Below, in pieces: positions 24,099 to 43,936 of a stretch of DNA of 64,000 nt. The stretch is taken from NCBI GenBank assembly GCA_016788425.1, contig JAEURQ010000004.1, forward strand, positions 186,001 through 250,000. Direction: 5' to 3'. The stretch comes from Chthonomonas sp. GTDB taxonomy: Bacteria > Armatimonadota > Fimbriimonadia > Fimbriimonadales > Fimbriimonadaceae. Under the pieces are notes generated by a model. The model had not been told where the DNA came from. It did no database searches and worked only from the letters and a program-made list of their open reading frames with translations. A program made the position numbers and the translations under genes. Positions within the stretch are counted from its first letter, which is position 1. The number at the start of each line of letters is the position of its first letter.

Positions 24099-24142
24099 AA
24101 TCGCTTCTTTTCCCACGGGCCGAATTTCATAATCTGGGCGTG

Positions 24143-25177
24143 ATGAGTCAGAAGACGATCAACGTTCTCCTCGCCGGCCTGAGCCTCGGCGTCCTCGCTG
24201 CCAGCTGCGGCCCCAAGGCCGAAGGTGGCACCACCGAAGGCACGCCCGCAACCGACGGCGCGAAGCTTTCGGGCAAGCTGACGGTTGACGGTTCGAGCAC
24301 CGTTTATCCCGCCAGCATGGCCGTTGCCGAAGAATTCACGAACAAGAATCCGGACGTGAAGGCAGCCGTCAGCGAATCGGGTACCGGTGGCGGCTTCAAG
24401 AAGTTTGCGGCCAAGGAAATTGATATCGCGGGCGCATCGCGACCGATCAAGAAGGAAGAAATGGAAGCCTGCGCGAAGGCTGGCGTCGAGTTCATCGAGC
24501 TTCCCATCGCGTTCGACGGCCTCACCGTGATCGTCAACAAGGAAAACACGTTTGCCAAGTCGCTGACCGTGGATGAGCTCAAGAAGATGTGGGCGCCGGG
24601 CAGCACGATCAACAACTGGAAGGATGTGCGCCCCGGATTCCCCGACCTGCCGATCAAGTTCTTTGGCGCGGGCACCGACTCGGGCACGTTTGACTACTTC
24701 ACCAAGGCGATTGTCGGCGAAGAGAAGTCGATCCGCAACGACTACGCCGCCAGCGAAGACGACAACGTCATCAGCCTCGGCGTGCAAAACGACAAGGGTG
24801 GCATCGGCTTCCTGGGTTACAGCTACTTTGTGATGAACCAAGACAAAATGGCCGCCGTGGCCATTGGCGATGGAGCCAGTGCCGTAGCGCCGAGCACGGA
24901 AACCATTCAAGGCGGCAGCTACCAGCCGCTCAGCCGACCGCTCTTCATCTACGTGAGCAAGGCCGCCGCCGCGCGACCCGAAGTGAAGGCCTACATCGAG
25001 ATGTACTTGAGCAAGGAATCCCGCACAATCCTGGGCGAAGAAGGGTTCGTCGCTCTGCCGGACGCCGCCTACGACTTGGTGGCCAAGCGATTTACCGAAG
25101 GGAAAACTGGCAGCGTGTTTGCCGGCGAAACCCTGATCGGTGTTAAGATGGAAGATATCCTCAGCAAGGAAAAGTAA
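24143..25177 (+). CDS. pstS: phosphate ABC transporter substrate-binding lipoprotein PstS
   Basis: The 344-aa lipoprotein has the lipobox LAASC with Cys22 (ATG 24143; a GTG one codon earlier is possible). The phosphate-binding loops are visible: LTVDGSSTVYPASMAVAEEF, SESGTGGGFKKF, DIAGASRPIK and FFGAGTDSGTFDYF. It binds inorganic phosphate outside the inner membrane and hands it to PstC/PstA. It heads the pstSCA operon, with pstC starting 3 bp after its stop. Confidence 0.95.
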   Translation: MSQKTINVLLAGLSLGVLAASCGPKAEGGTTEGTPATDGAKLSGKLTVDGSSTVYPASMAVAEEFTNKNPDVKAAVSESGTGGGFKKFAAKEIDIAGASRPIKKEEMEACAKAGVEFIELPIAFDGLTVIVNKENTFAKSLTVDELKKMWAPGSTINNWKDVRPGFPDLPIKFFGAGTDSGTFDYFTKAIVGEEKSIRNDYAASEDDNVISLGVQNDKGGIGFLGYSYFVMNQDKMAAVAIGDGASAVAPSTETIQGGSYQPLSRPLFIYVSKAAAARPEVKAYIEMYLSKESRTILGEEGFVALPDAAYDLVAKRFTEGKTGSVFAGETLIGVKMEDILSKEK

Positions 25178-25180
25178 GTC

Positions 25181-26119
25181 TTGATCGCCACTCCCGAAGC
25201 CAATTCGAACCGCGCGGAATCCCTGCGCCGCCGCATCTCCCTTCGCTCATTGAGCGAGGGGACTTTGCGCTCATTGTGCTTCGTCTGCGCCATCGTCACG
25301 ATTCTCACGACGCTGGCGATTGCCTACTTTTTGATCGTCGAAACCGTGCCGTTCTTCGGAAAGGTAACGCCGGCGGAGTTCTATCTGGGCACCAAGTGGT
25401 CGCCGCAGATTACGCCCAACCGCTACGGCGTGTTGCCGCTAATCTCGGGCACGTTTATGATCGCCATCGGGGCGGCGGTGATCGCGATTCCGCTGGGGCT
25501 AGCCTCGGCGATTTACCTCACCGAGTTTGCGACGTTGCGCACCAAGCGTGTGCTCAAGCCGACGCTGGAAGTGCTCGCCGGGATACCGACCGTCGTCTAC
25601 GGCTACTTCGCGTTGACAATGATCACGCCGTTCCTCAAGAAGTTTTTCCCCTCGACGGAAGGCTCCAACGCGGCCTCCGGCGCGATTGTCGTGGGCATCA
25701 TGATTCTGCCGCTGGTGAGCTCGCTTTGTAGCGACGCGCTCGCCGCCGTTCCGCGCGCCCTGCGCGAGGGAGCCTATGGCCTGGGCAGCACCAAGCAAGA
25801 AGTCACGATGAAGGTGGTGGTGCCGGGCGCGCTCAGCGGCATCATGTCGTCGTTCATTCTGGCGATTTCGCGAGCCGTCGGCGAGACCATGGCCGTGACC
25901 TTGGCCGCGGGCGCCACGCCGAAGCTCACGACCAACTACCTGGAAAGCATTCAGACCATGACCGCCTACATCGTGCAAGTGGTGAAGGGCGACACGCCGG
26001 TGGGCAGCATCGGCTACCAAACCATCTTTGCCGTCGGGTTCTCGCTGTTCGTCATCACGTTCGTGATGAACCTCATCGCGCGGGCGCTCGTGCAGAAATA
26101 TCGGAGGGTTTACGAATGA
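25181..26119 (+). CDS. pstC: phosphate ABC transporter permease PstC
   Basis: The 312-aa permease has six predicted membrane helices and the EAA-type loop (ALREGAYGLGSTKQEVTMKVVVPGALSGIM). Other typical features are LEVLAGIPTVVYGYFAL and ISRAVGETMAVTLAAGA. No ATG lies near the expected N-terminus; I accept TTG 25181, 3 bp after the pstS stop. Overlap with pstA is 4 bp. It forms the inner-membrane channel with PstA. Confidence 0.94.
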   Translation: MIATPEANSNRAESLRRRISLRSLSEGTLRSLCFVCAIVTILTTLAIAYFLIVETVPFFGKVTPAEFYLGTKWSPQITPNRYGVLPLISGTFMIAIGAAVIAIPLGLASAIYLTEFATLRTKRVLKPTLEVLAGIPTVVYGYFALTMITPFLKKFFPSTEGSNAASGAIVVGIMILPLVSSLCSDALAAVPRALREGAYGLGSTKQEVTMKVVVPGALSGIMSSFILAISRAVGETMAVTLAAGATPKLTTNYLESIQTMTAYIVQVVKGDTPVGSIGYQTIFAVGFSLFVITFVMNLIARALVQKYRRVYE

Positions 26120-26979
26120 GTCTGGACCTATCGGCCAGCCCGTGGAACCAACGTCGCGCGCGGCGCGAAAAGGCGTTTAAGTACCTGTGCTTTGGAAGCA
26201 CGCTACTGGCGGTTTTGTTTCTTGCCATCTTGCTCGTGGGCATCTTCGCGCAAGGCTTGCCGAACCTTGACTTCAACTTTCTGACTCGCAATTCCTCGCG
26301 CCATGCGCGCAACGCGGGCATCTACAACGCGCTGATTGGGACGGTGTGGATCATCGGCCTGACCATCGCGATCTCGGTGCCGGTGGGCATCGCGGCCGGG
26401 GTTTATCTGGAGGAGTTTGGCAAGAAGAACCGCTTCACGCAGTTCATTCAGCTGAACATCGCCAACCTCGCGTCGGTGCCGTCCATCATCTACGCGTTGC
26501 TGGGGCTGGCGCTGTTTGTGCGCATCTTCTCGCTGGGGCGATCGATTATCGCGGGCGCGCTGACGATGAGTTTGCTCATCCTGCCGATGATCATCGTCAC
26601 CACGCAGGAAGCTCTGCGCGCGGTGCCGAAATCGTATCGCGAGGGCTCGCTCGCCCTCGGCTCGACGCCTTGGCAAGCGGTGACCAAGCAAGTGCTGCCC
26701 AATGCCATGCCCGGTATTCTTACGGGGGTCATCCTTAGCGTGAGCCGCGCGATTGGCGAGACCGCGCCGCTGGTGACCATGGGCGCGGTGTTCGTCAACA
26801 TGCCGCCGAAGGGCATCGGCGATAGTTTCACCGCATTGCCGTTGCAGATTTACAACTGGAGCGGGAGCGCCAAACCGGGATTTCAGGAGCTGGCCGCGAC
26901 CGGAATTATCGTGTTGCTGGCGGTGCTGCTGACCATGAATTCGGTCGCGATTTTCCTGCGGAATAAGTATCAGCGGTAG
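26116..26979 (+). CDS. pstA: phosphate ABC transporter permease PstA
   Basis: The 287-aa permease has the characteristic PstA segments ISVPVGIAAGVYLEEFG, NIANLASVPSIIYALLGLALF, the EAA loop (SYREGSLALGSTPWQAVTKQVLPNAMPGI) and SRAIGETAPLVTMGAVF. It starts in an ATGA overlap with pstC. The usual next gene, pstB (ATPase), is missing; a GDSL esterase gene begins 24 bp later. Confidence 0.94.
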   Translation: MSLDLSASPWNQRRARREKAFKYLCFGSTLLAVLFLAILLVGIFAQGLPNLDFNFLTRNSSRHARNAGIYNALIGTVWIIGLTIAISVPVGIAAGVYLEEFGKKNRFTQFIQLNIANLASVPSIIYALLGLALFVRIFSLGRSIIAGALTMSLLILPMIIVTTQEALRAVPKSYREGSLALGSTPWQAVTKQVLPNAMPGILTGVILSVSRAIGETAPLVTMGAVFVNMPPKGIGDSFTALPLQIYNWSGSAKPGFQELAATGIIVLLAVLLTMNSVAIFLRNKYQR

Positions 26980-27912: not shown

Positions 27913-28239
27913 CGGTTATGAATAGGGGCTGACATTCCCTCGCTTTTTGGCGGAGGATGGGCTTAGATGAAGGTGGGGTCGCCCTTAACACGTGGTCGAA
28001 TTTGCCACCTCTCCCTGGCACCCCGTGGCGGGCCGCTCGCGGCCTGCCTTTTGTGTTTGCCTTGGTGGGGTCTTGCTGTAAGGTTTGCCGTGCGGTTTTG
28101 TGGCGGGAGGGCGCCGCGAGCCCCGCGAGCAGCATTTATTTCACCTCGCTTTTGGCAATCTTCTGCTGTGGTTCCGCACATGCTCTCAGGCTCGGCCCTT
28201 GGGTCTAGGCTGCAGCTCTCTTTTCAAACGCCAGCCTCA
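27913..28239. other. non-coding stretch before the repeat island
   Basis: No convincing gene. GGCCG (28031-28035) and CGGCC (28040-28044) flank CTCG and are followed by a T-rich stretch, which could be a weak terminator for the GDSL gene. At 28102-28130 there is a degraded minus-orientation copy of the half-element described below (GGCGGGAGG...CCCCGCGAGC). A 216-codon frame covers the region but its composition follows the repeats, and I do not accept it. Confidence 0.4.
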
Positions 28240-28311
28240 GCCGCGTCGGGGCGGGAGGACGACGCGAGCCCTGCGAGCGAGTCCGGGGGAGTGGCCGTGG
28301 GCCGACGCGGC
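28240..28311 (-). repeat. 72-bp inverted-terminus element, copy 1
   Basis: The element is bounded by GCCGCGTCGG and CCGACGCGGC, exact reverse complements, and is in the opposite orientation to the other four copies. Its interior reads as the reverse complement of the GGCCACTCCCCCGGACTCGC core. It abuts the duplicated leader of the small ORF at 28390. Confidence 0.85.
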
Positions 28312-28389
28312 GGAAACTTGGTCATCGATTTTCGCAGGATTTGGCTTATACTGTGTGCTCAGGCGGATTTCGCCTACGATTTGTGTCTC
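28311..28389 (+). promoter_or_regulatory. duplicated promoter/leader, copy 1
   Basis: This 79-bp stretch matches 30078-30157 with only a handful of changes in its first 60 bases (shared CATCGATTTTCGCAGGAT and GGCTTATACTGTGTGCTC). TATACT at 28347-28352 is a reasonable -10; the -35 is weak. A small hairpin (AGGCG/CGCCT, loop GATTT) lies just before the start codon region. Both copies end at an ATGAGGAA start. Confidence 0.6.
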
Positions 28390-28617
28390 ATGAGGAACTT
28401 GGAAACTGTGGCGAAAGCGAATTCTCTCAACGAGGGGAGTGGGCTTTGGCGGATGAAGCAAGAGCTAAACACGTTCTTTACTGGTACTGAGCCGGCGAGT
28501 AGCTTCGCGAATGATCGCGTGATGCGTGGGCAGGTTATCTGGTGTACGAATGAGGAGCTTGAGTCTCCGGTGCTTACAATGTATGCAACTTCAGAGATGA
28601 AGGGGGCTGTGCAATGA
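28390..28617 (+). CDS. small hypothetical protein (75 aa)
   Basis: An ORF starting ATGAGGAAC directly at the end of the duplicated leader; its stop overlaps the next ATG (ATGA). The product (MRNLETVAKANSLNEG..., later ASSFANDRVMRGQVIWC) has no signal peptide and no recognised family. In the sister cassette at 30158 the same leader runs straight into the PEP-CTERM gene, so this ORF is either an insertion here or a loss there. Position argues for translation; function unknown. Confidence 0.5.
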   Translation: MRNLETVAKANSLNEGSGLWRMKQELNTFFTGTEPASSFANDRVMRGQVIWCTNEELESPVLTMYATSEMKGAVQ

Positions 28618-29537
28618 GATTGCTTTTTGCCTCCCTCGCCTCTTTGTCCCTGACTCTTCTTGCTGAAGCGCAGCCTCGACAACTTAGGTATTTCCTACAG
28701 TATGGGGATCAAGGTTTGGTAGATATGGCGAGATCAACGGGGGTAGACTTAAATGCCGCAGTTGGAAGCGAAATACCCACTCATGTCAGCTTAAACGTAC
28801 CAATTGTTGGGAATTTTAGAGTAAGGATTGCTGTGCAAAATATGGGTAGCAGTTATGGCGAAGTCTTTTTAAGTACTTTGACAAGTTATATTGCATATGA
28901 TCGAGCAGAAGTGACCAATGTCGCTTACTTAGGTGCCATACCAAGTGACACATATTCCTTTAGAAAGCTATCACCTGCGTTTACTGCAGAAGAAAGTCTT
29001 GCAGCAAATCTGTCGAGATTTGCGAGCGATCCGGTCTTTGACCGGCAGAAACGGCCACTCGATGAAAATTCTGATGGGGTACAGGATTTAGCAAATTACG
29101 TTGTCGTTTCCAGCAGGGGGATTGGCGCATACGTGGCGGGAAGCGATGATCTTCGACAACTCAGGCCGATCGGACTGTCTCACAGTGTGTGGCCGCGCTA
29201 CCTAACACGCAACGGAAACTTCGGGTTTGGTTGGCTGAAGGTGTTGCCGGGCGAAAAGCATGTGATCTGTGATCAATCCTTTACAACATCTTTAGGTATC
29301 GGCGAAACGTACGGCACCCACAGTGGCGAAACTGGGTTGCTGGTGCATACCTCCGGTGGTGAAAAAACACCCAATGGTAACGACCACGGGTACTACCGTT
29401 CGAGCTTGATGCACCCCGAGCCATGGCAGCATATTGGTGCAAAGTACACATTGATCGGGGCAGCGCCTGTGCCAGAGCCAGGGGTGATGGTGGGCTTGCT
29501 CGCTGGACTCGGGATGTTGATTCGCCGTCGTCGGTAG
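28614..29537 (+). CDS. PEP-CTERM protein, AT-rich paralogue A
   Basis: The 307-aa protein has a signal peptide (LLFASLASLSLTLLAEA-Q) and a body of unknown fold with YFLQYGDQGLVDMARSTGVD, SYIAYDRAEVTNVAYLG and PLDENSDGVQDLANYVV. The PEP-CTERM tail is VPEPGVMVGLLAGLGMLIRRRR. It is clearly paralogous to 30158-31087 along its whole length. It is also distantly similar in style to the three tandem proteins at 16.7-19.2 kb (YGD near the N-terminus, IAYD). Base composition is low GC compared with neighbours (I count 33-43% in sampled 60-base lines). Confidence 0.78.
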   Translation: MRLLFASLASLSLTLLAEAQPRQLRYFLQYGDQGLVDMARSTGVDLNAAVGSEIPTHVSLNVPIVGNFRVRIAVQNMGSSYGEVFLSTLTSYIAYDRAEVTNVAYLGAIPSDTYSFRKLSPAFTAEESLAANLSRFASDPVFDRQKRPLDENSDGVQDLANYVVVSSRGIGAYVAGSDDLRQLRPIGLSHSVWPRYLTRNGNFGFGWLKVLPGEKHVICDQSFTTSLGIGETYGTHSGETGLLVHTSGGEKTPNGNDHGYYRSSLMHPEPWQHIGAKYTLIGAAPVPEPGVMVGLLAGLGMLIRRRR

Positions 29538-29584
29538 GTCGGCACCGACACAACCCCGCGCAAAGCGTTCTGAACCCACCTTCC
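29538..29584 (+). repeat. post-stop spacer repeat, copy 1
   Basis: Immediately after the PEP-CTERM stop codon. Shares AACCCCGCGCAAAGCGTTCT and its flanks with 31088-31133 and 31321-31367, and always sits between a PEP-CTERM 3' end and a 72-bp element. Confidence 0.75.
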
Positions 29585-29656
29585 GCCGCGTCGGCCCACG
29601 GCCACTCCCCCGGACTCGCTCGCAAGGCTCGCAACGTCCTCCCGCCCCGACGCGGC
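29585..29656 (+). repeat. 72-bp inverted-terminus element, copy 2
   Basis: Bounded by GCCGCGTCGG and CCGACGCGGC, with core GGCCACTCCCCCGGACTCGC. It directly follows the post-stop spacer of the first AT-rich PEP-CTERM gene. Confidence 0.9.
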
Positions 29657-29659
29657 TAT

Positions 29660-29726
29660 GCTGGCGTAAGAGTGGAGCTTTGGCGAGGGCGAAAGCCTTT
29701 CACCGACGCGGCTGAGCTGGCCCTGA
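29660..29726 (+). repeat. 67-bp direct repeat, copy 1
   Basis: GCTGGCGTAAGAGTG to CTGAGCTGGCCCTGA. It matches 31444-31510 with two mismatches, and in both places starts 4 bases after a 72-bp element. Confidence 0.85.
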
Positions 29727-29739
29727 CAATGGGAACCTG

Positions 29740-29787
29740 GTGGCTGGCGAGAGAGCACAAACCGGACGCGCTCGCGGGCTCGCGCCA
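29740..29787 (+). repeat. half-element, degenerate copy
   Basis: Begins GTGGCTGGCGAGAGAGC and continues into a CCGGACGCGCTCGCGGGCTC core that resembles the right half of the 72-bp element, but lacks the terminal CCGACGCGG. The rest of the gap up to 29901 holds no gene that I can support. Confidence 0.5.
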
Positions 29788-29901
29788 AACCCGCTGCACG
29801 CGGCGAGGCTGGCGCGGCACGCACCACGGCATTCTGTCCGCGAATTGTCCGCGGCTCCGGCAACTCGCGCAAGGCGGCCAATCGCAAGGAAACCACTTTT
29901 C

Positions 29902-29973
29902 GCCGCGTCGGCCCATGGCCACTCCCCCGGACTCGCTCGCAAGGCTCGCATCGTCCTCCCACCCCGACGCGGC
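29902..29973 (+). repeat. 72-bp inverted-terminus element, copy 3
   Basis: Same termini and core as copy 2, with small differences (CCATGG, CATCG, CCACC). No coding gene lies between copies 2 and 3. Confidence 0.9.
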
Positions 29974-30000
29974 TGGTGCTGGCGTTGAAAAGGGACCCTG

Positions 30001-30078
30001 GTGGCTGGCAAAGGAGCGCAAGCCGGACTCGCTCGCGGGGCTCGCGTCGCCCTCCTGCCCCGACCGCCCCGACGCGGC
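30001..30078 (+). repeat. half-element, copy ending at the leader
   Basis: Starts GTGGCTGGCAAAGGAGC, contains GCAAGCCGGACTCGCTCGC and ends with CCGACGCGGC, where the second leader copy begins. The CCGACC/GCCCCGAC stretch near its end contains a short internal duplication. Confidence 0.75.
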
Positions 30079-30157
30079 GGAAACTTCGCCATCGATTTTC
30101 GCAGGATGTGGCTTATACTGTGTGCTCAGGCGGATTTCGCCCGGAGTTGTGTTTCAC
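30078..30157 (+). promoter_or_regulatory. duplicated promoter/leader, copy 2
   Basis: This 80-bp match to 28311-28389 has the same TATACT -10-like hexamer and GGCG/CGCC mini-hairpin. It ends directly at the ATG of the second AT-rich PEP-CTERM gene. Confidence 0.6.
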
Positions 30158-31087
30158 ATGAGGAAGATTGCTGTTTTGGGGTTTGTCGCGGTGGCGTTCC
30201 TACCGGGGCTTGCGCTCGCGCAGGTTCGTCAGTTTCGTTTCTACTTGACTTACCAGGATCCAATGCTTATTGCTCTGGCGAGAGCAAGTGGCGCAGATGT
30301 CACCGCTGCTCTGGGTAAGGAGATACCCTCGGATAGATATCTAAATGTGCCAGCGGCAAGCTCCTTCCGAGTGGGTTTGGAATTTCAGCATATCTCAAAC
30401 GGCGAAGGGGACGTCTATGTTAAGGATTGTATAAGCTTCATCGCGTATGATCGGGCTGAGTTGACAAATGTCAGTTATCTCGCGGCTCCACCCTTAGATA
30501 ACTACTCCTTTAGAAAAGTCGCTCCAATGTTTACAACGGAGTCAAGCTTGTCAATGAACTTGGAGAATTTCGGTGGCGGATCGGCTTATGATCTAAACCG
30601 GGATCCTATCGACGAGAACAATGATGGCATCCCAGATCAAGCAACTTACTTTGCGAGTTCATCCCTTGGCGTTGGAGGTTATGTTTTGGGAAGCGACGAC
30701 ACTCGCCAGGTGCGACCGGTTGGGACATCTTATGCGATCCGGCCATTGTATCGACGGTCAAACGGAACTAGTGCACTTGGTTGGTTAAAGGTACAGCCCG
30801 GGGAAAGGCATCGAATTTGCACTTCGGTTTACACAAATTCCTTGCAAGTTGGGGAGCCATATGGCAGCCGAACTGGTGAAACGGGTTTGCTTTTGCACAC
30901 GACCGGTGGTGAGCAAACTGGCCAAAGCAACAATCTTGGCTACCCGAGAAATTCAGGATTCAACCCCGAGCCCTGGCAGAATATTGGGGCCAAGTACACC
31001 CTCATGGGGGCTGCGCCTGTGCCGGAGCCGGGGGGGATGGTTGGCTTGCTGGCTGGACTTGCGATGTTGATTCGCCGGCGCGGCTAG
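30158..31087 (+). CDS. PEP-CTERM protein, AT-rich paralogue B
   Basis: The 309-aa protein starts at ATG 30158; a long upstream in-frame extension is only repeat sequence. Signal peptide (VLGFVAVAFLPGLALA-Q). The body parallels 28614: FYLTYQDPMLIALARASGAD, SFIAYDRAELTNVSYLA, PIDENNDGIPDQATYF, GETGLLLHTTGGEQTG, PEPWQNIGAKYTLMGAAP. PEP-CTERM tail VPEPGGMVGLLAGLAMLIRRRG. GC is low (40% in the line sampled). Function unknown. Confidence 0.8.
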   Translation: MRKIAVLGFVAVAFLPGLALAQVRQFRFYLTYQDPMLIALARASGADVTAALGKEIPSDRYLNVPAASSFRVGLEFQHISNGEGDVYVKDCISFIAYDRAELTNVSYLAAPPLDNYSFRKVAPMFTTESSLSMNLENFGGGSAYDLNRDPIDENNDGIPDQATYFASSSLGVGGYVLGSDDTRQVRPVGTSYAIRPLYRRSNGTSALGWLKVQPGERHRICTSVYTNSLQVGEPYGSRTGETGLLLHTTGGEQTGQSNNLGYPRNSGFNPEPWQNIGAKYTLMGAAPVPEPGGMVGLLAGLAMLIRRRG

Positions 31088-31133
31088 GTCGGCCCGACCC
31101 AACCCCGCGCAAAGCGTTCTGAACCCAACTTCC
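31088..31133 (+). repeat. post-stop spacer repeat, copy 2
   Basis: Follows the stop of paralogue B and matches 29538-29584 (AACCCCGCGCAAAGCGTTCT), with small changes. Confidence 0.75.
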
Positions 31134-31205
31134 GCCGCGTCGGCCCATGGCCACTCCCCCGGACTCGCTCGCAAGGCTCGCATCGTCCTCCCGCCCCGAC
31201 GCGGC
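31134..31205 (+). repeat. 72-bp inverted-terminus element, copy 4
   Basis: GCCGCGTCGG...CCGACGCGGC with the same core as copies 2 and 3. It separates paralogue B from the truncated third PEP-CTERM 3' end. Confidence 0.9.
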
Positions 31206-31252
31206 TGAACTCGCCCCTGAAGATGGGGGCAGAGAGGAAGGCGAAAGTCATC

Positions 31253-31320
31253 CGGCCGGAGCCGGGGGGATGGTTGGCTTGCTCGCTGGACTGGGGATGG
31301 TGATTCGCCGGCGCGGCTAG
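31253..31320 (+). pseudogene. orphan 3' end of a third PEP-CTERM paralogue
   Basis: The frame encodes RPEPGGMVGLLAGLGMVIRRRG and a TAG stop, nearly identical to the end of paralogue B. Only this sorting-signal tail remains; the rest of the gene and its leader are missing. It is followed by the same spacer and 72-bp element as the intact copies, showing that the tail, spacer and element were copied together. Confidence 0.85.
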
Positions 31321-31367
31321 ATCGGCCCCGACACAACCCCGCGCAAAGCGTTCAAAAACCACTTCCC
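31321..31367 (+). repeat. post-stop spacer repeat, copy 3
   Basis: Third copy of the spacer (shares AACCCCGCGCAAAGCGTTC), after the orphan PEP-CTERM tail. Confidence 0.75.
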
Positions 31368-31439
31368 GCCGCGTCGGCCCAAGGCCACTCCCCCGGACTC
31401 GCTCGCGGGGCTCGCGACGTCCTCCCGCCCCGACACGGC
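31368..31439 (+). repeat. 72-bp inverted-terminus element, copy 5
   Basis: Left terminus GCCGCGTCGG is exact; the right terminus is CCGACACGGC with one mismatch. The interior matches the other copies. Confidence 0.88.
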
Positions 31440-31443
31440 TAGG

Positions 31444-31510
31444 GCTGGCGTAAGAGTGAAGCTTTGTCGAGGGCGAAAGCCTTTCACCGACGCGGCTGAG
31501 CTGGCCCTGA
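31444..31510 (+). repeat. 67-bp direct repeat, copy 2
   Basis: Two mismatches relative to 29660-29726, in the same position relative to its 72-bp element. Confidence 0.85.
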
Positions 31511-31523
31511 AAGTTGGAGCAAA

Positions 31524-31592
31524 GTGGCTGGGGAAGGAGCGCAAGCCGGACTCGCTCGCGGGGCTCGCGTCGTCCTCCCGCCCCGACGCGGC
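31524..31592 (+). repeat. half-element copy
   Basis: GTGGCTGGGGAAGGAGC, then the GCAAGCCGGACTCGCTCGC core, ending CCGACGCGGC. Lacks the left GCCGCGTCGG terminus. Confidence 0.75.
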
Positions 31593-31618
31593 TGGTGCTG
31601 GCACAGCGAAAGGAATGG

Positions 31619-31687
31619 GTGGCTGGCGAAAGTGCGCAAGCCGGACTTGCTCGCTAGGCTCGCGTCGTCCTCCCGCCCCGACGCGGC
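31619..31687 (+). repeat. half-element copy
   Basis: GTGGCTGGCGAAAGTGC, then a core with a few changes (GGACTTGCTCGCTAGGC), ending CCGACGCGGC. From here to 31845 I see only decayed repeat sequence (for example GCGAAAGAGCGCAAG at about 31716) and no gene. Confidence 0.72.
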
Positions 31688-31845
31688 TAATGCTGGCCCT
31701 GAAAAGTGCAATAGCCTGCGAAAGAGCGCAAGTCAACGCACGCAAAAGTCGGCAATCCCGAGAGGGAACCACGAGAGGAAGCTATGCGGATGGCAAGAAT
31801 CGTCCACCCTTCGGCCAAACGAAAGCCCAAACCCCATCCAACCCG

Positions 31846-32893: not shown

Positions 32894-33202
32894 ATGCAAA
32901 CGCTTCGAATTGTTTCGCCCGTCACGACCAGCGCGCTCAGCCCGACCTCGGCCACGCCCATCGCCCTGCCCGCTGGCTCAGGCAACGGCGTGATTCTGCA
33001 CAACCCGATCGCCGGATCGCGGGTGGCCCTGACCTTGAGCGGCCCCGATGAATCCGCGCCCGCCACCGTGGATGGCTCCAATCAGTTGTTTGTGCTAGCC
33101 GCCGGAGCGTCGCTTGCGCTCGACCTCACCGATAACGTGCGCATTTTCGCCCAGTGCGATGTCGCGGGCGGGCAGGTCAACGCCGCGCTCGCGGGTGGTT
33201 AG
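32894..33202 (+). CDS. small hypothetical protein (102 aa)
   Basis: Starts at ATG 32894 behind GGAGGGAGTG, a good ribosome-binding site. The product (QTLRIVSPVTTSALSPTSAT, then GVILHNPIAGSRVALTL and LFVLAAGASLALDLTDN) is an all-beta-looking, cysteine-poor protein without signal peptide. The GASLALDL stretch is of the type seen in small phage virion proteins, but this is a weak impression. It is convergent with the ROK kinase, overlapping by 4 bp. Confidence 0.6.
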   Translation: MQTLRIVSPVTTSALSPTSATPIALPAGSGNGVILHNPIAGSRVALTLSGPDESAPATVDGSNQLFVLAAGASLALDLTDNVRIFAQCDVAGGQVNAALAGG

Positions 33203-34203
33203 ATCAACGCCAGAGCCGCCGCGCCAAGAATGCCGGCGTCGTCAATTTCCTTGGCCTGCACAATCGTGGCGAAGTCAAACAGGTTGGGGATCGCGACATT
33301 GCGGGCCGCGCGTCGGGCCGGGCCGAGAATAAACTCGCCGGCCTTAGCGATTTGGCCGCCGACGGCCACCACGTCCGGCGCAAAAATGTTGATGAACGAG
33401 CCGATGCCTTGACCGAGGAAGGTGCCGACTTCCTCGAACACCTCAATCGCGAGTTCGTCGCCGGCTTCGCAGGCCTTGGAGATGAGGCTCGGGCTGACCA
33501 GGTTCAAATCGCCGCCGGTCAGTTGGTGCAGCACCGAATCGCGGCCCCGGTTGAGGCGGTGCTGGGCGCGGCGGATGATGCTGTCGCGCTGACAATAGGC
33601 TTCGAGGCTGCCGTAGCTCCCAGCCGGGCAATCCAGCCCGCTCGGGTTGAGGCTGAGGTGGCCGCATTCCGCGCCGCCCTTGTTGCCGCCAAGCAGCACG
33701 ATCGGGCCGCGAGCGTCGCCTTGCACGGAGCCCGGTCCCATCACGATTCCGCCGCCCACGCCGGTGCCCAAGGTGAGCATCACCAGGCACTTGGCGCGGT
33801 TTTCGCCCGAGCCAAATCGATATTCGCCGAGCGCGGCCAGGTTCGCGTCATTGCCCATGCACACCGGAATCGAGAGCCGCTCACGCAGCATTGCGCCGAC
33901 CGGCACGTCCTTCCAATACTTAAAAACGCTGCCTTCGTAGTGGCCAAAGTTCGGCGCCCAAAAGACCATGCCGCTCACGTCGTCCACAAATCCCGGGATG
34001 GCGAGGCCGACTCTTTCCGGCGTGGTATCGGTGTCGTTAATCGCTTGCTCAATCACCTCGTTGAGCGCTTCGATGATGGCTTCAGTGCCTTCCTGAGCGC
34101 GGCTCGGAATCTCTTGCCGTTCGCCCTGGGGATTGCCAGCTTCGTCCAGCACTTGCGCGCGCACGTTGGTGCCGCCCAAATCCACGCCGACCACGGTCCG
34201 CAT
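33199..34203 (-). CDS. ROK-family sugar kinase (glucokinase-like)
   Basis: The 334-aa protein starts VVGVDLGGTNVRAQVLDEAGN, the ROK ATP-binding motif. It has VGLAIPGFVDDVSG, CMGNDANLAALGEYRFG with the catalytic Asp, and LTLGTGVGGGIV. The ROK zinc motif normally C-x-C-G-x-x-G-C-x-E is altered: GLDCPAGSYGSLEAY keeps only the first cysteine. It probably phosphorylates glucose or an amino sugar. It lies downstream of a MarR regulator whose stop overlaps its ATG (TGATG). Confidence 0.88.
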   Translation of the reverse strand: MRTVVGVDLGGTNVRAQVLDEAGNPQGERQEIPSRAQEGTEAIIEALNEVIEQAINDTDTTPERVGLAIPGFVDDVSGMVFWAPNFGHYEGSVFKYWKDVPVGAMLRERLSIPVCMGNDANLAALGEYRFGSGENRAKCLVMLTLGTGVGGGIVMGPGSVQGDARGPIVLLGGNKGGAECGHLSLNPSGLDCPAGSYGSLEAYCQRDSIIRRAQHRLNRGRDSVLHQLTGGDLNLVSPSLISKACEAGDELAIEVFEEVGTFLGQGIGSFINIFAPDVVAVGGQIAKAGEFILGPARRAARNVAIPNLFDFATIVQAKEIDDAGILGAAALALI

Positions 34204-34634
34204 CAGGCGTCACCGCCTTCGAGGTTGGTCAGCATTTGGTCCAACACTCGCGCGACCACGCTCAGTTCGGTTTCAGTAATTCCCTTTAGCATCTGTTCTT
34301 CAATTGCGCCAATGTCGCGCACCATCAGCTTCACCGCGGCCTTCCCGGCGGGGGTCAGCAACACGCGCTTAGAGCGTCGGTCGCGCCGATCGTCCACTTG
34401 CTCAATCAGGCCCAATCGCAGGTGCAGTTGGATGGCCTCGGTGAGGGTTGGCGGAGTGATGGCGAGCCGCCGCGCAACCTCCGCCTGCACCAAGCCTCGG
34501 GCGTGGCCGTACAGCGTGGTGAGCAGTTGGAACGTGGCCCAACGATACCCCCGGGCCCGCAGCTTTGGCTCAATCGCACTGGATTGCGCGTCGTGCAAAA
34601 TTGCGATTCGCGCCAAAATTTCTTGTCCGGCCAT
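34203..34634 (-). CDS. MarR-family transcriptional regulator
   Basis: A 143-aa winged-helix protein (ATG 34634). FQLLTTLYGHARGLVQAEVARRL is followed by the recognition helix ITPPTLTEAIQLHLRLGLIEQ, the wing DRRDRRSKRVLLTPAGKAAV, and a C-terminal dimer helix. It precedes the ROK kinase in the same transcript and is divergent from the ArsR-B12 regulator. It probably controls the ROK gene or the divergent region; the ligand is unknown. Confidence 0.9.
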   Translation of the reverse strand: MAGQEILARIAILHDAQSSAIEPKLRARGYRWATFQLLTTLYGHARGLVQAEVARRLAITPPTLTEAIQLHLRLGLIEQVDDRRDRRSKRVLLTPAGKAAVKLMVRDIGAIEEQMLKGITETELSVVARVLDQMLTNLEGGDA

Positions 34635-34733
34635 AAGCAAGTTTGTACCTGATTGTTTCGGTCGGCGAATGTTTCCTGGGGTGAGCCGCTAGGTTGAACA
34701 ACTTTTAACATGCGCGGCTCGTAGTAGCTAGCA

Positions 34734-35645
34734 ATGCCGGACTTTATCCAAGATATGTTGGAGCCGTCGCGCCGCATCCTGCTTTGCGAATTGCTGGATG
34801 GAGCGCGAACGGTGACGCAACTGGTGGATGCGACCGGCATGAAGCAGCCGAATGTCAGCAATCACCTGGCCAAGTTGCGCGAACGCGATATCGTGCAGTC
34901 GAGCAAGATCGGCCGCCAGGTCTATTACAGTTTGCAGGGCTACGATATTGAGGTCGTGGTGCGCAACCTAATGATTCGTCAGGAAGAACCGCCGGTTGTT
35001 CCCGACGACGAGGTCGCGCTGAAGATCGCGCGCGCTGCGACCGCAGGCGACGACGAATCCGCAGCGCGGCTGATTGATCAGTACATGCGCGCGCATCGCG
35101 ATGTGATCAAAGCCTACGAAGACATTTTTGGGGCGGCGTTTTACTACATCGGCAAGTGGTTTGAGGTGCAGGCGATTGACGTGGCGCAGGAGCACCTGGC
35201 GACCGCGATTCTGGAACGGCTGATGTCGCGGGTGATGCACTATGCCGCGGTGCCACCGGCCACCGGGCCGAAGGCGATTTTAGCGTGCGTGCCCGAGAAC
35301 TATCACACCATTGGGCTTCGCATGCTCAGCGACTGTTTGCGCCTGCACGGTTGGCACACGTTTTACTTGGGGGCCAATGTGCCGCTGGCGAGCCTCACGA
35401 CTCGCGTGGCCGAGGTGCAACCCGACCTGCTCCTACTGAGCGTGACCACTGGTGAGCAGTTGCCGGCATTGAGCGAAGTTGTGGACGCGCTCGTGCGCGA
35501 ACGGGCGCGCCTAGAGCTCACCACGCGCATTGGCGTGGGCGGTCAAGGGACTCGCTTGCCCGAGGCGAGCGAAGTGCTCAAGCGGGTTGATTTCACCGCT
35601 AATACGCTCGGCGAATTTAACCAGCTCGTCCCGACTTTGGCTTAG
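34734..35645 (+). CDS. ArsR-type HTH fused to cobalamin-binding domains
   Basis: A 303-aa fusion. Residues 1-85 are an ArsR-like winged helix (RRILLCELLDGARTVTQLVD, KQPNVSNHLAKLRERDIV, GRQVYYSL). Residues about 95-170 are a B12-binding cap bundle with Trp142 and AQEHLATAILERL (Glu153-His154). Residues 180-300 are a Rossmann-like B12-binding domain with E188-x-x-H191-x-x-G194 (ENYHTIG) and LYL-type strands. Light-sensing CarH/LitR regulators have the same cap and H-x-x-G site but a MerR HTH. This may be a B12 sensor or photoreceptor. Its targets are unknown. Confidence 0.85.
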   Translation: MPDFIQDMLEPSRRILLCELLDGARTVTQLVDATGMKQPNVSNHLAKLRERDIVQSSKIGRQVYYSLQGYDIEVVVRNLMIRQEEPPVVPDDEVALKIARAATAGDDESAARLIDQYMRAHRDVIKAYEDIFGAAFYYIGKWFEVQAIDVAQEHLATAILERLMSRVMHYAAVPPATGPKAILACVPENYHTIGLRMLSDCLRLHGWHTFYLGANVPLASLTTRVAEVQPDLLLLSVTTGEQLPALSEVVDALVRERARLELTTRIGVGGQGTRLPEASEVLKRVDFTANTLGEFNQLVPTLA

Positions 35646-40981: not shown

Positions 40982-40995
40982 TATGGGCCCCATAA
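40981..40995. promoter_or_regulatory. palindrome at the divergent HD/ppx starts
   Basis: TTATGGG (40981-40987) and CCCATAA (40989-40995) are exact reverse complements around a single C. The site touches the start codon of the HD gene and lies 15 bp before the favoured ppx start, so a bound protein would block both. Candidate operator only. Confidence 0.45.
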
Positions 40996-41009
40996 TAATG
41001 GGAATGGGC

Positions 41010-41921
41010 ATGGTGCTGGCGGCGGCGGATATCGGAAGCAATACGGTGCACCTGCTTGTCGCCGATGTGAACGGCTCGGTTCAGCGACGGCTCGCCAACG
41101 AAAGCGAATGGCTTTCGCTGGGTGAAGTAGTAAGCCGCGAGCGACGGATTCCGGACACCGACGCGGACCGATTGGTGGGCGTGCTCGCCCGCTACAAGGC
41201 AATATGCACCACCTTTAAGGCGCAAAAGCTATACGTTTTTGCCACCGAAGCCATGCGCGTGGCGGAAAACCACGACGCCGTTCTGCAGCGGATCAAGAAA
41301 GAAGTGGGCGTGACCGTGGACCTCATTCCCAGCCATCGCGAGGCCGAGCTGAGCTGGCGCGGCACGCAGCTGGATTGCAGTACGCCGGAGCCGGCGGCTC
41401 TCGTCGAAATCGGGGGCGGGAGCGTGCAGGTCGCGGTGGTGCAGCGCGGGGCGCTCACTCATCAAGTCTCGCTGCCGCTCGGCACGGGGCGACTGATCGA
41501 GCAAACCGGCCTGGTTTACCCTTGCCCGCCGGACCGCTTGGATCGCCTTGGCCGGCTGATTGATGCCGAACTGATGCGAGTTGCGGACTTCCCGCGGGTC
41601 AACAGCATGGTGGTCTCGGGCGGGGTCGGGCGCGGCATTTGGCGGGCATTGCACCCGGATGGGCTGCGCGACATCGTGCTGCCGGAAGTGAAGTATTTGG
41701 AATGGGCGGCGGCGCGCCTCACCGCGAGCCAAGGCGCGGCAAGATTTAACGTTCGGTTAAAACGCGGGCAAACGCTTGTGCCCGGCGCCATGGTGTTTCG
41801 TAAGATCATGGAGCGCCTCGACATTGATCACTTTGTAGTGAGCGAGTTTGGCGTGCGCGAGGGCGCGATTATGGAGCTGGCGGCGAACGCACCCAAGGCG
41901 AAGACCGCGAAGCGAAAGTGA
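41010..41921 (+). CDS. ppx: Ppx/GppA-family phosphatase
   Basis: The 303-aa protein starts best at ATG 41010 (VLAAADIGSNTVHLLVADV); in-frame ATGs at 40983, 40998 and 41004 add unlike residues. Motifs are the ASKHA phosphate loop ADIGSNT, VFATEAMR, VEIGGGSVQVAV and VSGGVGRG. It removes terminal phosphates from polyphosphate or pppGpp. The short single-catalytic-domain form (about 300 aa) is common. It overlaps ppk by 4 bp, forming a polyphosphate operon. Confidence 0.9.
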   Translation: MVLAAADIGSNTVHLLVADVNGSVQRRLANESEWLSLGEVVSRERRIPDTDADRLVGVLARYKAICTTFKAQKLYVFATEAMRVAENHDAVLQRIKKEVGVTVDLIPSHREAELSWRGTQLDCSTPEPAALVEIGGGSVQVAVVQRGALTHQVSLPLGTGRLIEQTGLVYPCPPDRLDRLGRLIDAELMRVADFPRVNSMVVSGGVGRGIWRALHPDGLRDIVLPEVKYLEWAAARLTASQGAARFNVRLKRGQTLVPGAMVFRKIMERLDIDHFVVSEFGVREGAIMELAANAPKAKTAKRK

Positions 41922-43936
41922 CCATGGCTGCCTACCTTAACCGCGAACTCAGTTGGCTTGAATTCAATCGGCGCGTGCTAGCCGAAGCCACCAACGAGCG
42001 CAATCCGTTGCTGGAAAAGTTAAAGTTTCTGGCGATTTTTGAATCAAATCTCGACGAGTTTTATATGGTGCGCGTTTCGGGCCTCATTGAGCAAGAAGAA
42101 GCGAAAATCACCGAGCGCACGCCGGATGGGCTGACGCCCTCCGAGCAGCTTCAGGCCATCGCCGAGCTTGCCGTGCCGATGCGCAAAGAGGCGAACCAGG
42201 TGTGGAAGGGGCTTCTGCCAAAACTGCAAAAAGTGGGCGTGCGGATTCGTGGGTGGGATGACCTCACCGACAAGCAGCGCGCCGACATGGCGACCTACTT
42301 TCTGCGGTCGATCAAGCCGATCCTTACGCCGCTGATTCTCGATCCCGCGCCGAGCGTGCCGTTTATCTCGAACCGCTCGCTGAACCTCGCGGTCGAGATT
42401 AGCGACGAGAGCGGGCCGCGGATCGGTCGCGTGAAGGTACCTCACGAAGACCGGCGGTTCATCCCTATTCCGGGGCTGAAAAACGAGTTCATTGCGCTGG
42501 AAGACCTGGTCACCGCGAACATCAATGAGCTGTACCCCGGCGCGAAGATCGTGGGGGTTCACCCGTTCCGGTTGGTGCGCGACGCCGACATGGATATCCG
42601 TTGGCTGGAAGCGGCGGACCTTGTCAGCTCGGTCGAAAACACGATTCACCAGCGCCGGTTTGGCGATCCGGTTCTGCTGCAAGTGCAGCCGACCATGCCC
42701 GCCGCGCTCCTGAAAAACCTCATGCGCATGCATGCGCTGGAAACACAGGACGTGATGGTGATTGATGGGCTGCTCGCGCTCGAAGGTCTTTGGGACCTCG
42801 CCGCCCTGAGCATCGCCGGCGAGAAGTTTCCGCCCGCCCGATCGTATCTCAGCGACAAACTCGCGACGAGCGACTCGCTATTCGCCGAGGTGAAGTCGCG
42901 CGACGTGGTGGTGCATCAGCCGTTTGACAGCTTCGCCAGCGTGCAGGCCTTCATCGATTCCGCCGCGACCGACCCGCGCGTGCTCGGCATCAAGCAAACC
43001 CTGTATCGCGTCGGCAAGGAGTCACCGGTGGTCGAATCGTTGCTGGAAGCGGCTCGCGAAGGCAAGCAAGTGGCCGTCATGGTCGAGCTCAAGGCGCGCT
43101 TTGACGAGACGAATAACATCACTTGGGCGCGGATGCTCGAACGCGCGGGGGTGCACGTGAGCTATGGCTTTCAGGAACTTAAAACCCACTGCAAACTCGC
43201 GCTCGTTGTGCGACGGCAATCGGATGGTTCGCTGCGTTCGTTCGCGCACATCGGCACCGGGAACTACAATCCGGTGACCGCGCAGCTCTACACCGACTTC
43301 GGCATGTTCACCTCCGATCCGGACATCACGGACGACGTGGCGACCCTGTTTAACTACCTCACCGGGTTCAGCAAAGACGTCAGTTACAAGCGCCTGCTGG
43401 TGGCGCCAGATAACCTGCGCGACGGAATTTTGGAGCGCATTGAGCGCGAGGCCGCGCACGGCAAGGCGGGCCGGATTATCTTTAAGCTCAACTCGCTCGT
43501 GGATCCGGAAGTCATCGACGCGCTCTACGAAGCGGCGGGCGCAGGGGTTTCCATTGATTGCGTGGTGCGGGGCATCTGCTGCCTCATCCCGCGCAAAAAC
43601 ATTCGTGTGCGCAGTATCGTCGGGCGATTTTTGGAGCATAGCCGCGCTTACTACTTTGGCAACAACGGCCAGGCGGAACTTTACATCGGCAGTAGCGACA
43701 TCATGCGACGCAACTTAGACCGCCGCGTCGAGGTCCTGGCCCCGATTTCGAACGCAAAACAGATTCAACGATTCTTGGAACAGGTGCTCGAACCCTACTT
43801 GCGGGACACGACAAACGCGTGGGAATTGCAGACCGATGGCACCTATGTTCGGGTGCAAAACGAGAAGAAACCTTACTCGGCGCAAGAAGCATTGCAGGAC
43901 AATCCGTTTTCGTTGCGCGATATCCCCACAAAATAG
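41918..43936 (+). CDS. ppk1: polyphosphate kinase 1
   Basis: The 672-aa protein (GTG 41918 in a GTGA overlap; ATG 41924 possible) makes polyphosphate from ATP. The N-terminal domain is YLNRELSWLEFNRRVLAEA. Other features are IKQTLYRVGKESPVVESL, the phospholipase-D-like segment HIGTGNYNPVTAQLYTDFG with the autophosphorylated histidine at about 444, and a second site in RRNLDRRVEVLAP. Length is standard. Together with ppx and the upstream pst genes it points to active phosphate storage. Confidence 0.96.
   Translation: MTMAAYLNRELSWLEFNRRVLAEATNERNPLLEKLKFLAIFESNLDEFYMVRVSGLIEQEEAKITERTPDGLTPSEQLQAIAELAVPMRKEANQVWKGLLPKLQKVGVRIRGWDDLTDKQRADMATYFLRSIKPILTPLILDPAPSVPFISNRSLNLAVEISDESGPRIGRVKVPHEDRRFIPIPGLKNEFIALEDLVTANINELYPGAKIVGVHPFRLVRDADMDIRWLEAADLVSSVENTIHQRRFGDPVLLQVQPTMPAALLKNLMRMHALETQDVMVIDGLLALEGLWDLAALSIAGEKFPPARSYLSDKLATSDSLFAEVKSRDVVVHQPFDSFASVQAFIDSAATDPRVLGIKQTLYRVGKESPVVESLLEAAREGKQVAVMVELKARFDETNNITWARMLERAGVHVSYGFQELKTHCKLALVVRRQSDGSLRSFAHIGTGNYNPVTAQLYTDFGMFTSDPDITDDVATLFNYLTGFSKDVSYKRLLVAPDNLRDGILERIEREAAHGKAGRIIFKLNSLVDPEVIDALYEAAGAGVSIDCVVRGICCLIPRKNIRVRSIVGRFLEHSRAYYFGNNGQAELYIGSSDIMRRNLDRRVEVLAPISNAKQIQRFLEQVLEPYLRDTTNAWELQTDGTYVRVQNEKKPYSAQEALQDNPFSLRDIPTK

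Follow-up and report, generated by a model that had tools for sequence, protein, structure and literature searches.

A predicted ArsR-type repressor with a CarH-like cobalamin module in Fimbriimonadaceae: a likely photoreceptor acting through an ECF sigma factor

The open reading frame at 34734-35645 of the 64,000-nucleotide stretch of Chthonomonas sp. DNA analysed here (the window) encodes an ArsR winged helix followed by the two cobalamin-binding subdomains of CarH and MetH. All three Pfam domains of the protein (HTH_5, B12-binding_2 and B12-binding) score above their curated cut-offs, with 55 bits against a gathering score of 32.1 for B12-binding (PF02310) and 44.3 against 23 for B12-binding_2 (PF02607), and both HTH_5 and NF033788 (62.4 bits against a cut-off of 55) place it among the ArsR/SmtB proteins. 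This bears out the first-pass annotation of the locus, made from the sequence alone, which had read it as an ArsR winged helix fused to a CarH-like B12 module; the E-x-x-H-x-x-G cobalamin site named in that annotation is likewise present as E188, H191 and G194, and H191 is expected to be the lower axial ligand of the cobalt. The ArsR part lacks a Cys motif of the metalloregulator type, its single Cys (C18) being unconserved in the orthologue alignment. The features of the locus are as follows.

34734..35645, + strand: ArsR-cobalamin fusion regulator, 303 aa (open reading frame, Pfam domains, orthologues)
34764..34901, + strand: ArsR winged helix HTH_5, residues 11-56 (Pfam E 2.4e-12; NCBIfam HTH_metalloreg above cut-off)
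34845..34868, + strand: recognition helix QPNVSNHL, residues 38-45 (alignment of 18 orthologues)
35022..35231, + strand: cobalamin cap four-helix domain B12-binding_2, residues 97-166 (Pfam E 2.1e-11)
35151..35195, + strand: G140-K-W142-F143-x9-E153-H154, counterpart of the CarH GxxW-x9-EH (alignments to 8j2w and 8jbs; residues of relatives)
35271..35555, + strand: B12-binding Rossmann-like domain, residues 180-274 (Pfam E 8.9e-15; fold matches)
35295..35315, + strand: E188-N-Y-H191-T-I-G194 (H191 and G194 invariant in 18 orthologues)
35370..35384, + strand: GANVP, the GxxxP element of the light-responsive signature (G213, V216 and P217 invariant; signature from PMC11796333)
34641..34733, no strand: spacer separating the regulator from the divergent MarR gene (no family operator; a 9-nt direct repeat, 34651/34667, only)

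The fusion gene is single-copy in the window genome (2.67 Mb in 4 contigs, 99.9% complete). A search of genome contigs with this single protein recovered no relative; the relatives were instead retrieved with an alignment profile, which matched 36 loci over both halves of the protein, nearly all of them in MAGs named as Fimbriimonadaceae, Armatimonadetes or Chthonomonas. Eighteen other genomes of the family contain orthologues, of which that in G022 is matched only in its N-terminal part, near a contig end. The 18 aligned orthologues are 31-42% identical to the query, and their recognition helix is nearly invariant, with Q38, P39, N40, S42, N43, H44 and L45 fixed. On the family protein tree the regulator is scattered in a manner that forces at least four changes. 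One genome of the family without the ArsR fusion (G013) encodes a protein with a MerR-type-looking N-terminus and a B12 module (L042:261-1262), perhaps a conventional CarH.

In the same alignment of 18 orthologues E153, H154, H191, G194, G213 and P217, and also G140, are invariant, which indicates that the B12 site is under selection and is no chance likeness; most relatives have GxxH where the window protein has E-x-x-H. The first-pass annotation had further described a W...EH cap as in CarH, with a spacing between Trp and Glu-His one residue longer than in that protein. The EH pair holds good as E153-H154. The Trp does not: when phmmer aligns the protein with the photocobilin 8j2w and with 8jbs, the cobalamin domain of CtMerR, the photoreceptor Trp falls opposite F143 rather than W142. 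With the Gly that stands 13 residues before the Glu of EH also conserved, the pattern in the window protein is G-K-W-F-x9-EH (GxxF) with no insertion, so that F143 is the counterpart of CarH Trp131 and the spacing is normal, the longer one having come from a misread register. The Trp131 column is aromatic in all 35 relatives (Tyr in 25, Trp in 10), and the preceding position, which had been taken for the cap Trp, is Trp in 26 of the 35. The strict Wx9EH pattern is thus missing from the window protein (F143-x9-E153-H154) and present in more than a quarter of its relatives (the 10 of 35 with Trp). The elements of the light-responsive signature (GxxW, EH, GxxH and GxxxP) read GKWF, EH, ENYH and GANVP in the window protein, two of them strict and two substituted, and relatives such as L045 and L048 carry GxxW, EH and GNWH. 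None of the 35 relatives has a His at the CarH His132 position. This position is Arg in CtMerR and Gln in SasPcob, and CtMerR is light-responsive despite missing His132 (PMC11796333); the absence of this His is therefore compatible with a light response. Loss of the Trp is a real caution for the regulator, because Myxococcus CarA, which retains the B12 motif and has lost the Trp and four residues flanking it, does not depend on B12 (PMC9304148).

An AlphaFold model built from the 18 orthologues (mean pLDDT 92.1) was used for structural comparison. Its cobalamin part matches the photocobilin 8j2w best (Z 25.1, rmsd 1.9, 206 aligned residues), followed by the cobalamin domain of CtMerR (8jbs, Z 24.8), methionine synthase (MetH) 1bmt (Z 21.4) and TtCarH 5c8e (Z 19.6); the Foldseek matches agree with this. 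Photocobilins and the CtMerR domain are proven green-light B12 receptors (PMC10979010, PMC11796333). A MetH-like fold by itself says little on function, but the top two groups being light receptors lends support to a photoreceptor role for the modelled protein.

Expectation maximisation under a palindrome constraint on 32 non-redundant promoters of regulator genes recovered a shared palindrome, ATATATCA-N8-TGATATAT, which defines a predicted operator of 24 bp; earlier expectation-maximisation runs on the regulator promoters had also scored above shuffled controls. In leave-one-out scoring 14 of the 32 promoters reach at least 10 bits, where only about 0.1 would be expected from the background of 0.019 sites per kb at that threshold in 34 other regions. 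Within the family, a genome-wide pattern search allowing at most 2 mismatches found matches in 11 of 13 genomes with the regulator and in 0 of 10 without it (Fisher 7e-5, a test which here as elsewhere in this analysis treats genomes as independent, which they are only in part). By matrix scoring there is no operator in the window gene's own promoter or in that of the same-genus genome, and 34635-34733, which the first-pass annotation had put forward as the DNA-binding region, is without the family operator, its best score being about 0 bits. Operators of ArsR proteins resemble one another, and similar palindromes are common for them; in G044, which lacks the fusion, such a palindrome accompanies a different ArsR gene, one that has a metal-transport ATPase as its neighbour.

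The sole match to the pattern in the window genome (ATATATCAGTATCAGGTGATAGAA, G000:C3:345956-345979) begins within the -10 element of the promoter TTGACA-16-TACAAT of an ECF sigma-factor gene and ends one base before its ATG. The regulator gene and the ECF gene lie on different contigs of this genome. The orthologous ECF gene was sought in 61 genomes, and the upstream regions were scored with a matrix trained on the regulator promoters alone. An operator is found upstream of the gene in 17 of 18 regulator-bearing genomes as against 0 of 12 others, 3 of which are distant or outside the family (p 1.5e-7); the one regulator-bearing exception (G017) has only a distant sigma factor, with 44% identity. 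Operator and regulator also differ together in all three supported independent tree pairs, a result that is consistent with the linkage and comes from too few pairs for significance. As the operator overlaps the -10 element, its position suggests that the regulator represses the ECF sigma gene. Inspection of the loci by eye revealed no anti-sigma gene beside the ECF gene, which fits control of the sigma factor through transcription. Divergent from the ECF gene is a small protein of about 120-160 aa with an FVDL-ATL motif (L222:946-1317), which has equivalents at L198, L202, L215, L217 and L219, in genomes both with and without the regulator.

Fasciclin genes are further candidate targets. At 10 bits they carry operators in 8 of 15 regulator-bearing genomes versus 0 of 15 others (p 0.002), and at 8 bits in 11 of 15 versus 0 of 15 (p 5e-5); fasciclin also co-occurs with the regulator, being encoded in 18 of 19 genomes with it and 6 of 18 without (p 1e-4). 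In G012, which has no ECF orthologue, a fasciclin gene lies just 3' of the regulator with a perfect operator between the two. A fasciclin gene of R. sphaeroides, RSP_1409, belongs to the RpoE regulon and is upregulated under singlet oxygen (PMC7074977). Strong operators in G012 also stand directly 5' of genes for an FAD-dependent oxidoreductase and an old-yellow-enzyme protein (L189:3381-4616; L187 around 4745), and in this genome without the ECF orthologue the regulator may hence act on stress genes directly. Further operator matches were seen at an S41 peptidase gene in G012 and at an AraC-type gene in G019.

The ECF gene is in turn associated with carotenoid synthesis. Among family genomes, 20 of the 26 that have the ECF gene and 0 of the 11 that lack it encode a strong phytoene synthase (p 1.4e-5), so that the sigma gene accompanies this synthase in all 20 genomes of the family that encode it; the corresponding counts for the regulator are 15 of 19 genomes with it and 5 of 18 without (p 0.003). 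In two genomes without the regulator (G008 and G036) some 4-7 kb separate the ECF gene from crtB. A search upstream of the crt operons turned up no ECF-type promoter that they share, and the step from the sigma factor to the crt genes is therefore one that we infer. No convincing operator was detected at the phytoene synthase clusters or at non-adjacent acyl-CoA dehydrogenase genes, nor upstream of photolyase genes, one 10.1-bit match lying near the 3' end of the G006 photolyase gene. The carotenoid cluster of the window genome (L123:4136-11572, on G000:C4) has a photolyase at one end and further includes a CruF-like gene, two CrtI-like desaturases, an acyltransferase, phytoene synthase and a divergent glycosyltransferase.

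An acyl-CoA dehydrogenase is the commonest divergent neighbour of the regulator, a member of this family being present at 21 of the 36 loci. In the window the place that it has in most relatives is taken by a divergent MarR-family gene (34203-34640), which adjoins a ROK-family kinase gene (33199-34203). The window genome also encodes a PduO-type adenosyltransferase, so AdoCbl can probably be made.

Based on the architecture, the conserved B12 site, the operator motif and the linkage of this motif to both the presence of the regulator and the ECF gene, all of which emerge directly from the computation, we propose as the probable explanation that the protein is a B12-dependent ArsR-type repressor, most likely a photoreceptor of the CarH/LitR kind in which a winged helix has replaced the MerR domain and which acts via an ECF sigma factor. 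We infer that light is the signal and AdoCbl the ligand. Adenosylcobalamin would be bound by the C-terminal module in darkness, H191 lying beneath the cobalt and F143, E153 and H154 surrounding the adenosyl group, and the palindromic operators would then be occupied by the ArsR part, repression being predicted from the position of the site. The main conserved target would be the promoter of one ECF sigma-factor gene, with the fasciclin genes and, in many relatives, the regulator's own promoter region, often shared with the divergent acyl-CoA dehydrogenase gene, as additional ones. On illumination the Co-C bond would be cleaved and the protein would leave the DNA, whereupon the sigma factor would be made and would switch on genes for carotenoids and for the response to photo-oxidative stress. 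We hold with only a shade less confidence, and still as somewhat better than an even proposition, that these proteins constitute distinct B12 photoreceptors of the Armatimonadota, in which AdoCbl photolysis switches an ArsR winged helix, the cap is Tyr, Phe or Trp, no bis-His state is formed and an ECF cascade leads to photoprotection.

The cap and Rossmann cobalamin module behind an N-terminal DNA-binding domain is likewise the layout of CarH from Thermus thermophilus and Myxococcus xanthus (NF052513), with which the window protein shares the EH pair, the lower-ligand His and a match of the CarH model over residues 91-278. It differs from CarH in having an ArsR winged helix (HTH_5) rather than a MerR domain, in a whole-protein score of only 54.6 bits against the NF052513 cut-off of 400, in the Phe (Tyr or Trp in relatives) at Trp131 and the lack of a His at His132, which belongs to the bis-His light state of TtCarH, and in a predicted family operator that is an ArsR-like palindrome before an ECF sigma gene. 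The closest folds, the CtMerR domain of Chloracidobacterium thermophilum and the photocobilins, are light-responsive also without His132 (PMC11796333), but they have MerR or bilin/GGDEF partners in place of ArsR, are only 22-28% identical to the window protein and possess the full GxxW element. The predicted cascade is reminiscent of LitR-LitS of Streptomyces coelicolor, where the B12 regulator LitR controls the ECF factor LitS, which drives carotenoid genes (PMC12705666). This is a precedent for a B12 regulator acting through an ECF sigma factor, and the putative operator at the ECF gene in 17 of 18 genomes is a feature of this type. LitR, however, is of MerR type and is described as promoting litS transcription in light (PMC12705666), whereas the operator position here suggests repression; moreover, the regulator and sigma gene of the window genome are on separate contigs, and only co-occurrence connects them with crt. 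With the ArsR/SmtB proteins (NF033788, HTH_5) the regulator shares the winged helix, the layout of the recognition helix and a palindromic operator, and it departs from them in lacking the metal-sensing Cys motif and in the cobalamin module of about 200 residues fused behind.

The first-pass annotation had left the choice between a photoreceptor and a B12-status sensor. The fold matches to light receptors, the ECF/fasciclin regulon and the co-occurrence with phytoene synthase favour the former, with light itself as the presumed signal. Several observations from sequence count against it: Phe, and Tyr in most relatives, replaces the Trp of the cap; photolyase genes and the regulator promoter of the window carry no operator; the search for a common ECF promoter at crt gave none; and the commonest neighbour is an acyl-CoA dehydrogenase, no obvious light-response gene. 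That neighbour would suit a sensor in which occupancy by AdoCbl or MeCbl sets DNA binding and makes acyl-CoA metabolism and the ECF sigma factor dependent on the supply of cobalamin; the same binding site would serve such a sensor, and the replacement in the window protein of a Trp thought important for AdoCbl photochemistry points the same way. Yet AdoCbl-dependent methylmalonyl-CoA mutase, the candidate for a linked B12 process, had to be rejected, being unassociated with the regulator (7 of 19 genomes with it, 3 of 18 without, p 0.27) and absent from the window genome, which speaks against a simple role in B12 supply; the predicted targets, namely the ECF sigma gene, fasciclin genes and indirectly carotenoids, comprise no B12 uptake genes or B12 enzymes, and the closest structures are light receptors. 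We therefore judge a B12-status sensor to be rather unlikely.

The precedent of CarA, with its motif kept and its Trp and flanks lost (PMC9304148), together with F143 where photoreceptors have Trp, also allows for a B12-independent repressor that responds to some other cue and uses the cobalamin module only for dimerisation or partner binding. Against this stand the invariance in 18 orthologues of E153, H154, H191, G194, G213 and P217 and a capping column that is aromatic in 35 of 35 relatives and Trp in 10 of these, which make such a repressor improbable. Still a little less probable is that the operator belongs to a different co-inherited regulator, of ArsR or other type, and that the fusion protein controls something else. 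Palindromes of this kind are common for ArsR proteins, as the one at another ArsR gene in G044 illustrates, and the regulator's own promoter in the window's genus is without a site; however, the motif was learned from fusion-gene promoters and does not occur at the ECF gene in genomes that have this gene but lack the fusion, the recognition helix hardly varies, as one shared operator demands, and the three supported independent tree pairs change together.

Literature searches, which covered mainly openly accessible papers, found no description of an ArsR-cobalamin photoreceptor, and the main text of the SignatureFinder paper refers to HTH fusions without naming ArsR. The bare ArsR-cobalamin architecture may already be listed somewhere; what is new here is the predicted regulon of the regulator. 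If the photoreceptor proposal is true, a second DNA-binding fold, unrelated to the first, has been joined to B12 photoreception, and small dimeric repressors could take up the cobalamin cassette as a plug-in switch. A phylum that has received little study would also gain a testable light-response circuit, made up of the regulator, the ECF sigma factor and the fasciclin and carotenoid genes, and there would be a natural Trp/Tyr/Phe series for the role of the capping aromatic; with the operator defined at 24 bp, the claim can be tested at low cost. Green-light repressors based on ArsR could be useful optogenetic parts.

Elsewhere in the window, 28200-31700 contains several dispersed direct and inverted repeats with units of about 57-178 nt that are 60-96% alike. 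They are located both between and on either side of two related PEP-CTERM-like genes (28614-29537 and 29423-31087), and the region may represent a duplicated gene with repeat-rich flanks. PstS/PstC/PstA-like phosphate transport genes, named from reading their translations, are found at 24140-26979, and 14 kb beyond them, at 40983-43936, lie a Ppx/GppA-like gene, checked with Pfam, and a polyphosphate kinase-like gene, read from its translation.
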